Below, in pieces: positions 6,568 to 48,495 of a DNA stretch of 64,000 nucleotides. This DNA is from Spinactinospora alkalitolerans (GTDB lineage Bacteria; Actinomycetota; Actinomycetes; Streptosporangiales; Streptosporangiaceae), in assembly GCF_013408795.1 (NCBI RefSeq), contig NZ_JACCCC010000001.1:3844001-3908000 (forward strand). Reading direction: 5' to 3'. Each line of letters starts with the position of its first letter. Within the stretch, counting starts at the first letter, position 1. The notes beneath the pieces were generated by a model, which worked only from the letters and a program-made list of their open reading frames with translations, had not been told where the DNA came from and ran no database searches. The position numbers were made by a program, and so were the translations under genes.

Positions 6568-7374
6568 TCACTCCGGCAGGTGCGGCAGGGTGGACTCGGG
6601 CGAGGCGAACGCGCCGCCCTGCGGGCCGCCGTGCCAGAACGGGTCGTCGTCGGGGAAGCCCGGGGCGAAGCCCGCGGCGTCGTCGACCGGGCGGTAGCCC
6701 AGCTCGTTCTCGCCCGCCGTCAGGTCCCAGAACCTGCGCGCGTTCGCTGAGACGGCGTAGACGGCGGCGAAGGTGACGTTGTCCGTGGTGAGCGCTGCGC
6801 GCACGAAGCCGACGCAGTCGCGGGGGCTGAGCCAGGTCGCCAGGTGCCGGGTCTCGGTCGGCTCGGTCTCGAACGATCCGATCCGCAGCGCCACGACCTC
6901 CAGCCCGAACTTGTCGGCGTACATCTGGCCGAGCGCCTCGACCGCGACCTTGCTGACCCCGTACAGGCCGTCGGGGCGGGGCGGCTCGTCGGGGAAGACG
7001 TGGTGGTGGATCGGGTATCCCCCGGTCACCCGGTTGCTGCCGGCCAGCACGACCCGGCGCACCCCGGTCCGGCGGGCGGCCTCCAGCACGGTGAACGTCC
7101 CCTTGACGTTGGCGTCGAGGAGTTCGTCGAACGGCGCCTCGTCGGGGCGGCCGGCCAGGTGCACGACGGCGTCGGCCCCCTGGAACGCCTTCTGCAGCGC
7201 GTCGAGGTCGTTGATGTCGCCTTCGTGGACGGTCTCGTTGTCGCTGTCCGCGGTCACGGGTTCGCGGTCGAACAGCACCAGCTCGCCGACGTTCTCGCGC
7301 AGCCCTTCGCGCACGGTGGCTCCCATGCGCCCGGCCACTCCGGTGATCACGATCCTGCCAAGGTTCACATCCAT
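6568..7374 (-). CDS. NAD-dependent uronate dehydrogenase-like epimerase/dehydratase
   Basis: The 268-residue protein is a short extended SDR enzyme. It starts with the NAD-binding loop ITGVAGRMG (residues 9-17), has the acidic strand end DREP, and the active-site YGVSK. Later motifs YADKFGLEVVALRIGS, HLATWLSPRD and AVSANARRFWDL closely follow uronate dehydrogenase (Udh), which oxidises D-galacturonate or D-glucuronate to the aldarolactone. That specific activity is inferred from the pattern. ATG 7374 begins the conserved strand; upstream residues in the frame are unrelated. No other uronate catabolic gene is adjacent, so it may be a stand-alone gene. Confidence 0.75.
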   Translation of the reverse strand: MDVNLGRIVITGVAGRMGATVREGLRENVGELVLFDREPVTADSDNETVHEGDINDLDALQKAFQGADAVVHLAGRPDEAPFDELLDANVKGTFTVLEAARRTGVRRVVLAGSNRVTGGYPIHHHVFPDEPPRPDGLYGVSKVAVEALGQMYADKFGLEVVALRIGSFETEPTETRHLATWLSPRDCVGFVRAALTTDNVTFAAVYAVSANARRFWDLTAGENELGYRPVDDAAGFAPGFPDDDPFWHGGPQGGAFASPESTLPHLPE

Positions 7375-47539: not shown

Positions 47540-47749
47540 CTACTCCTCCAGCCGGAACCCCACCTTCAGCCCCACCTGGAAATGCCCGATCTCGCCGTTC
47601 TCGATGTGGCCGCGCACCTCGGTGACCTCGAACCAGTCGAGTTCGCGCAGGGTCGACGAGGCCCGGCTGACCCCGTTGCGGATCGCCTGCTCGACGCCCT
47701 CCGGCGAGGTGCCGACGATCTCGGTGACGCGGTAGGTGTGGTTGGTCAT
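47540..47749 (-). CDS. Dodecin
   Basis: The 69-residue protein matches the dodecin family: TYRVTEIVGTSPEGVEQAIRNG, then LRELDWFEVTEVRGHI and a closing FQVGLKVGFRLEE. Dodecins form hollow twelve-subunit shells that bind and store flavins (or CoA in actinobacterial members). ATG 47749 is used. It is a single gene, convergent with TldE. Confidence 0.92.
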   Translation of the reverse strand: MTNHTYRVTEIVGTSPEGVEQAIRNGVSRASSTLRELDWFEVTEVRGHIENGEIGHFQVGLKVGFRLEE

Positions 47750-48045
47750 GCTGCTGCTCCTCTACGCCCTTCGCTGCGGCCGTGTACCCGGCGCCTGGTG
47801 GCACGCTTCCCGCGCGGCGGCGGACCAATCCCCGCGCGGCCAGGAACGGCCCGGAGCCCTCCGCGGCGCTTGGCGGCCGCTTGGCCGCCGCTTGACCCCC
47901 GCTTGGCCGTTCCCCGTCCGAAGGTGGCCGTTTCCCGACCGGCGATTCCGGGAACCCCCGCGGCGAACGCGGCGAATGATGGCGGTTCGGGACCATTGGC
48001 CCGGAAAAGCGCGGGACTCTCCCGAGATCACGTCGTAACAGAGTC

Positions 48046-48077
48046 TTGACGTACAAGGGGGATCGGCGGTGTAGATT
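48046..48077 (+). promoter_or_regulatory. Promoter of the 6C-like small RNA
   Basis: TTGACG (48046-48051) and a -10-like TGTAGATT (48070-48077) precede the first hairpin by about 8 bases. The spacing is 18 to TGTAGA or 20 to TAGATT. No frame starts in the next 180 bases. Confidence 0.6.
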
Positions 48078-48082
48078 GGGAA

Positions 48083-48196
48083 TCAGCGCTTCGGTCCCCC
48101 GTCGAAGCGCACGGCCGGTGTTTCGAGCCCCCGTCGAAACACCGCCCGCGACGTCGGGTGGTTTGCCCCCGTAGCCACCCGGCGTCGCTTTTTATT
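48083..48196 (+). ncRNA. 6C RNA-like small RNA with three C-loop hairpins
   Basis: Hairpin 1 (48086-48110) has an 8 bp stem and loop GTCCCCCGT; hairpin 2 (48116-48144) has a 10 bp stem and loop AGCCCCCGT; hairpin 3 (48148-48188) has a 14 bp stem with one wobble, loop containing CCCCCGT, and is followed by TTTTTATT as an intrinsic terminator. Known: 6C RNAs are an actinobacterial small-RNA family defined by two stem-loops with runs of cytosines in the loops. The pattern, promoter and terminator all point to a discrete transcript of about 110 bases on this strand. Target RNAs are likely G-rich regions but are not identified. Confidence 0.75.
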
Positions 48197-48261
48197 GCGC
48201 GGGAATCGGCCTTGACCATTCCTTGCCGAAGACCACGGTTTCCCGACCTCGGGGGTAAACA

Positions 48262-48495
48262 ATGCGGAATGACCTTGCGACCGGCGAAATGACGTCCGAG
48301 GACGCGCACTGCTCACGGAGGGGCTGCCGGGCGCCCGCCCAATGGGTGCTGGTGTGGAACAACCCCAAGATCCACGCGCCCGACCGCCGCAAGACCTGGC
48401 TCGCCTGCGATGAGCACCGCGAGTACCTCGCGGCCTTTCTCGACGCCCGCGGCTTCCTGCGCGAGACGGTGGCCTTCACCGACTTCGCGGGCTGA
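48262..48495 (+). CDS. Small conserved actinobacterial protein with Cys/His residues
   Basis: The 77-residue protein contains CSRRGCRAPAQWVLVWNNPKIH and TWLACDEHREYL, a Cys-x4-Cys ... Cys-x2-His layout that probably binds zinc. Homologs of this type are widespread in Streptomyces, sometimes mislabelled acetone carboxylase, and have no known function. ATG 48262 follows the small RNA by about 65 bases, so it may be transcribed from its own start. A pair of tandem palindromes follows the stop. Confidence 0.7.
   Translation: MRNDLATGEMTSEDAHCSRRGCRAPAQWVLVWNNPKIHAPDRRKTWLACDEHREYLAAFLDARGFLRETVAFTDFAG

Follow-up and report, generated by a model that had tools for sequence, protein, structure and literature searches.

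Do three successive hairpins that expose the same short run of cytosines constitute an RNA gene, to which family does this RNA belong, and what might its loops bind? The question is raised by a locus of Spinactinospora alkalitolerans within a stretch of 64,000 nt (hereafter the window), for which an earlier note had proposed a discrete small RNA of the 6C type. Few small RNAs of actinobacteria are understood, and a covarying RNA gene present in 196 of 200 genomes of a family offers a concrete locus to probe. We conclude that positions 48086-48193 (+) of the window very probably contain the gene of a small regulatory-type RNA that occurs across many actinobacteria and that here presents the same C-rich loop three times.

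The three-hairpin RNA corresponds to C1:3892082-3892194 (+) of its own genome. Hairpin 1 (48086-48110, +) has nine pairs and the loop UCCCCCG at 48095-48101, hairpin 2 (48116-48144, +) has eleven pairs and the loop GCCCCCG at 48127-48133, and hairpin 3 (48148-48188, +) is a terminator-like stem of 16 pairs with the loop UGCCCCCGU at 48164-48172. It is followed by five Ts (48189-48193, +), by sequence the tail of a probable intrinsic terminator. The three stem-loops with CCCCCGT that the earlier note had described could be confirmed, except that the T of hairpins 1 and 2 can pair, and so could its T-tailed stem carrying the third C-loop. The minimum free energy of the RNA is -67.9 kcal/mol compared to a mean of -39.0 for shuffled sequences (z = -8.1), and none of 200 shuffles folded as stably. 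CCCCCG is found at 101 sites on both strands of the window, five of which are flanked by a stem of at least eight pairs (G-T allowed); three of these five are hairpins 1-3. In 40 dinucleotide shuffles of the window a mean of 0.9 such hairpins was obtained (maximum three), with no triple within 110 nt. The two other stem-flanked sites are located at 7019 and 37224 (+) and have stems of 8 and 10 pairs.

Of 200 genomes from the same family, 196 gave a BLASTN match to 48050-48200, and the four genomes without a match are assemblies of 250-960 contigs with 72-93% stated completeness. Fifty family loci were compared, the 30 best-scoring BLASTN loci and 20 chosen for divergence; 46 of them, 26 of the former and the 20 others, were aligned, and L013, L019, L020 and L026 were omitted as close to others. 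RNAalifold recovers all three hairpins from this alignment. Altogether 99.5% of 1656 cells are paired (99.9% in hairpin 3), and 18 of 36 base pairs show changes on both sides, namely 7 of 9 in hairpin 1, 5 of 11 in hairpin 2 and 6 of 16 in hairpin 3. The shuffled mean is 5.6, and none of 500 shuffles reached any of the measures. Sliding the structure by one to three columns left 36-53% of the cells paired and one to four double-changed pairs, a comparison in which the structure is favoured by its derivation from the same alignment and the sequences are related; the double-sided changes are the stronger evidence. These data strongly support that 48086-48193 (+) specifies a structured RNA.

Mean identity amounts to 0.997 in the loops, 0.917 in the stems and 0.362 in the linkers. 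The loops are the most conserved part, as a role in binding would lead one to expect. All 50 loci have an identical loop 3; they were located by script through this very loop, which was absent from none of them. Loops 1 and 2 each have five Cs in 49 of the 50 loci and four in one; the single-contig genome G021 (locus L016) has four Cs in loops 1 and 2, five in loop 3 and a retained promoter-like sequence. The z-score of the fold, the covariation and the loop identity indicate that C-run loops displayed on stable hairpins are under selection. Translation of the region was considered and is thought unlikely, as indels between the hairpins are not multiples of three and base changes preserve the pairs. 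Two reading frames are free of stops across the RNA in 36 and 37 of the 50 loci, which in about 120 nt of GC-rich DNA is weak evidence for translation.

The conserved sequence upstream of hairpin 1 makes a promoter plausible. The -35-like hexamer TTGACG (48046-48051, +) reads TTGAC(G/T/A) in 47 of 50 family loci, TTGATG in two and TTGCAC in one, and the -10-like hexamer TAGATT (48072-48077, +), taken as the best-scoring hexamer at spacings of 15-22 nt, conforms to TANNNT in all 50. The spacer measures 20 nt in 48 loci and 19 and 21 nt in one each. This is longer than the optimum for sigma-70, and a simple sigma-70 scan, which allows spacers of 16-18 nt only, listed no promoter at the locus. 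The preceding promoter claimed in the earlier note stands as a plausible and conserved TTGACG-20 nt-TAGATT, and not as a hit of such a scan. A run of at least four Gs is seen within the spacer (48052-48071) in many family members. At the other end, a simple terminator scan did not list hairpin 3 with its five Ts; in the 46-sequence alignment close relatives have a clear T-tract 3' of hairpin 3, which is weak in several of the distant family members.

An 11-bp direct repeat, GTAAC-n6-TTGAC (48035-48050, +), overlaps the -35-like element and resembles boxes of the GlnR/MtrA type. Of the 50 family loci, 34 have GTNAC-n6-TTGA(C/T) on the -35, 11 have a relaxed form and 5 have none. The repeat is similar to the GlnR box, described as GTnAC-n6-GTnAC or gTnAc-n6-GaAAc in the accessible part of PMC10704036, and less closely similar to the MtrA consensus GTAACCNNNNNGTAACC as it appears in the accessible part of PMC12323332. 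It is our guess that an OmpR-type regulator of the GlnR/MtrA kind might control the RNA through the GTNAC-n6-TTGAC box.

How far does this RNA extend beyond its family? A covariance model built from the 46 family sequences (R1) matched 83 of 296 genomes of the class sample at E 0.01, comprising 28 genomes of the own family, at about 1e-17 or better, and 55 others with far weaker values of 1e-8 to 0.01. R1 also matched 146 of 150 genomes of the order sample at E 0.001, nearly all of which belong to one family; one of the four genomes from outside it was matched. One further family of the order matches over the full length, and one own-family genome (G010) was matched by BLASTN and missed by R1. 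Inspection of 22 non-family or second R1 matches (L080-L101) revealed mostly two-hairpin relatives, in which a penultimate hairpin with a CCCCCG loop precedes a terminator-like hairpin with UUCCCCCGU or CUCCCCCCGU; in family f18 the homologues inspected consist of two hairpins, which carry five and six Cs. At L081, L087, L091, L099 and L101 the terminator C-loop alone is evident, and the number of C-loops thus ranges from one to three among the loci examined. L090 is a second match within an own-family genome; it has no C-loops and probably arose by chance.

A second model (R2), built from 16 of the sequences found with R1, none of them from the own family, matched 120 of 296 genomes of the class sample at E 0.01. 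It recovers the same 28 own-family genomes (E 6e-8 to 3e-6), with the match in the own genome (G000) at this very locus; since the training set had itself been found with R1, this is a consistency check and not a fully independent test. R2 further matched 27 genomes of family f18 (E 5e-13 to 1e-11), some of which had supplied training sequences. In a phylum sample 10 of 296 genomes were matched, all of the own class; none of about 270 genomes outside the class had a match at E 0.001 among the matches listed, which doubles as a control for false positives. Hairpins 2 and 3 hence have relatives throughout the class, hairpin 3 being the most widely kept, and hairpin 1 with its C-loop was seen only in the own family among the loci inspected. 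The 5' hairpin looks like a lineage-specific addition. The suggestion that a third C-loop in the terminator extends a two-hairpin motif was accordingly right as to the presence of the third loop, and the direction of the extension is partly reversed by the relatives, in which the terminator loop is the most widely kept and the 5' hairpin the added one.

A pattern scan of titled genome records found at least 118 loci; the scan demands two C-loops and says nothing on absence. The 80 loci with named genomes are mostly from Streptomyces and also from Kitasatospora, Streptacidiphilus, Actinacidiphila, Jiangella, Saccharothrix, Nocardiopsis trehalosi, Marinitenerispora and metagenome-assembled genomes, one of them of the Streptosporangiaceae. 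Streptomyces and other families carry relatives with two hairpins, many of which share the locus.

The gene order at these loci lends independent support. In the window the RNA is preceded by a tldD/pmbA pair and a dodecin gene (47540-47749, -; PF07311, E 2.8e-29; NCBIfam dodecin over cut-off) and followed by a small gene (48262-48495, +) and a MobA-like gene. At the f18 locus L089 the order is tyrS, a Transgly_assoc gene, DUF3099, the RNA, the small gene and moaA. The small gene encodes a conserved protein of unknown function, 77 aa in the window, that is syntenic in many relatives; searches assigned it neither to a Pfam family at E 0.001 nor to an NCBIfam family above the cut-off. The protein has 77-82 aa in actinobacteria (L089: 1697-1945, -) and the motif W-L-WNNP-H-P-RRK-W-C-EH, and the copy in the window has a weak, below-cut-off likeness to TrpM over 13 residues. 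By tblastn the small gene was found at 29 of 50 family loci and 9 of 22 other loci (L080-L101). Regex tests within 900 and 1200 nt of the 118 listed pattern-scan loci detected the small-protein motif downstream in 103 (within 900 nt), a convergent moaA tail in 97 and a DUF3099-like motif upstream in 79. The shared position supports orthology of the two-hairpin relatives. As moaA of S. coelicolor is SCO1821 according to the accessible text of PMC4021200, the orthologue of the RNA in this species should adjoin SCO1821.

No description of the three-hairpin RNA was found in the accessible open-access literature text, supplementary tables aside. The text of PMC3765725, as far as accessible, reports two groups of conserved and expressed Streptomyces sRNAs with C-rich loops, scr5583/sar2652/svr5279 and scr1434/sar6912/svr1031. 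These are named by the gene on their right-hand side (SCO5583 and SCO1434, compared to moaA, SCO1821, for the present RNA), and it is by this naming that they are set apart here. A Streptomyces orthologue may be among the unnamed transcripts of Table S3 of that publication. The same source, in its accessible part, names RNAIII-type regulators with C-rich loops; these target mRNAs by such loops and are from Staphylococcus aureus, a member of another phylum, so that the likeness is one of analogy.

What could the loops do? We consider it fairly probable that the locus encodes an sRNA in its own right, which uses its C-loops for pairing with G-rich ribosome-binding regions. With orthologues in a large part of the class and the same CCCCCG(U) loop on three rigid hairpins, the RNA would on this reading be transcribed from a promoter of its own, with a length of about 110 nt. 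Each loop would pair with a G-rich stretch, for instance CGGGGG, in the ribosome-binding region of an mRNA and would block its translation. The RNA would act without Hfq, as is reported for the 6C/B11 loops in mycobacteria, and the third loop would double as intrinsic terminator such that every terminated transcript would end in a target-binding element. The 6C/B11 RNA is said to be independent of RNA chaperones, to go by the title of a study of Mai et al. from 2019. For B11/6C of Mycobacterium abscessus, repression by pairing of a C-loop with a G-tract in the 5' UTR was demonstrated by compensatory mutations, as stated in the accessible part of PMC10470900, and Streptomyces has no Hfq orthologue according to that of PMC11678152. 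Given that the same exposed C-loop is presented three times here, blocking of ribosome-binding sites is our best guess. At this locus it can be tested whether actinobacteria use C-loop pairing as a general mode of regulation outside 6C as well, and whether the strength or breadth of regulation depends on the loop number.

Small tests for such targets gave no clear support for pairing with ribosome-binding sites. ACGGGGG-n4-9-ATG was counted at 50 places and ACGGGGG-n24-29-ATG at 62, with two G-runs counted twice, so that the motif is no commoner at the Shine-Dalgarno spacing; the reversed patterns gave 13 and 36, and the resulting ratios of 50 to 13 and 62 to 36 leave an enrichment at the Shine-Dalgarno distance ambiguous. 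A rule based on codon composition classified 17 of the 50 places as likely real frames, some with unconvincing starts. For one candidate target, the L259 protein, CGGGGG is kept in none of 13 relatives and five Gs in a row in 4 of 13, in an alignment where 3 of the 13 rows begin at residue 14, so that their start is not placed. For dodecin, a single locus (L046) among 35 shows CGGGGG in the ribosome-binding site at the aligned start. A target in cis was considered and rejected: the CGGGGG at 48250-48255 (+), close to where the downstream small gene begins, is complementary to the loops and is present in 3 of the 29 loci with the gene, hence not conserved, with start codons uncertain in several.

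An alternative, which we regard as unlikely, is that the RNA binds a protein or serves as a decoy, its C-loops recruiting an RNA-binding protein or soaking up G-rich RNAs. A repeated short loop is the layout of known titration RNAs, and the present RNA indeed carries one short loop in several near-invariant copies. The variation of the loop number between one and three from locus to locus and the outcome of the above target tests would fit as well. However, pairing is the mode of action of B11/6C, the analogue that has been studied best (PMC10470900, accessible part).

Very unlikely is a role in cis, be it as a leader or attenuator of the downstream small gene or as a mere strong intergenic terminator. 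In favour of it, only 68 nt separate the T-tail from the small gene in the window, and the motif of this gene lies no more than 900 nt downstream at the mentioned 103 of 118 loci. Yet the gene was not found at 21 of the 50 family loci, and several loci have a convergent gene as the next one detected; the RNA is therefore not simply a leader, and the absence of the gene argues for a stand-alone RNA. A mere terminator, for its part, needs neither hairpins 1 and 2 nor invariant loops nor a conserved promoter-like sequence of its own.

For the stand-alone sRNA that pairs with ribosome-binding regions, a wider picture can be drawn tentatively, to which we assign somewhat less than an even chance. 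The RNA would belong to a class-wide sRNA family that exists alongside 6C and independently of it. In this sRNA family the terminator would be the ancestral target-binding C-loop, and identical C-loop hairpins would have been added in some lineages, to give one, two or three. The outcome would be a global regulator of G-rich ribosome-binding sites that is multivalent and needs no Hfq, in the own family perhaps under the control of an OmpR-type nutrient regulator.

It remains to place the RNA relative to 6C. The covariance model RF01066 does not match anywhere in the window at its gathering score (47 bits), nor within 47900-48350 at E values up to 10, and no other family of Rfam 15 matched the RNA at gathering score. 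Five weak Rfam matches (miRNA families, PyrR206 and anti-hemB; E 0.022-8.3) are far below the gathering scores and look like chance hairpins. RF01066 is also without a match at gathering score in the 19 loci L080-L098 (among them L090), while the positive control L001, the genuine 6C of the own genome, matches with 50.7 bits at C1:24138-24214 (-). The accessible part of PMC8388888 defines 6C by two stem-loops with six or more Cs each; the present RNA has three stem-loops with five Cs each, followed by G(U). R1, in turn, scores 18.4 bits on the real 6C and 130 bits on its own locus. The locus differs too, being situated between dodecin or DUF3099 on one side and the small gene, moaA or mobA on the other. 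With RF01066 silent, the two RNAs at different places of one genome, five Cs per loop and the R1 scores so far apart, it is most improbable that the RNA is a 6C member overlooked by the Rfam model, a reading favoured by the general layout shared with L001, and its identity as Rfam 6C is rejected. From the earlier proposal of a discrete 6C-like RNA we retain the C-loop RNA gene, on the basis of conservation and covariation, and 6C-like action as a fair analogy; membership of 6C is dropped. Both are short actinobacterial RNAs with consecutive hairpins bearing C-run loops, the last of them terminator-like. They are nevertheless separate RNAs, perhaps with a similar mode of action, and may share a very old origin. 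Note that 6C was detected in 142 of 296 genomes of the class sample at E 0.001, in 112 of them over the cut-off. Family f4 contributes 24 genomes with a 6C match and none with an R2 match among the matches listed. In the own family 20 of 28 genomes carry both 6C (E 0.001) and the three-hairpin RNA, and the other eight, all of genus g46, have the three-loop RNA only, with no 6C match at E 0.001. L001 itself displays two C-loops, the second of which sits on a terminator-like stem.
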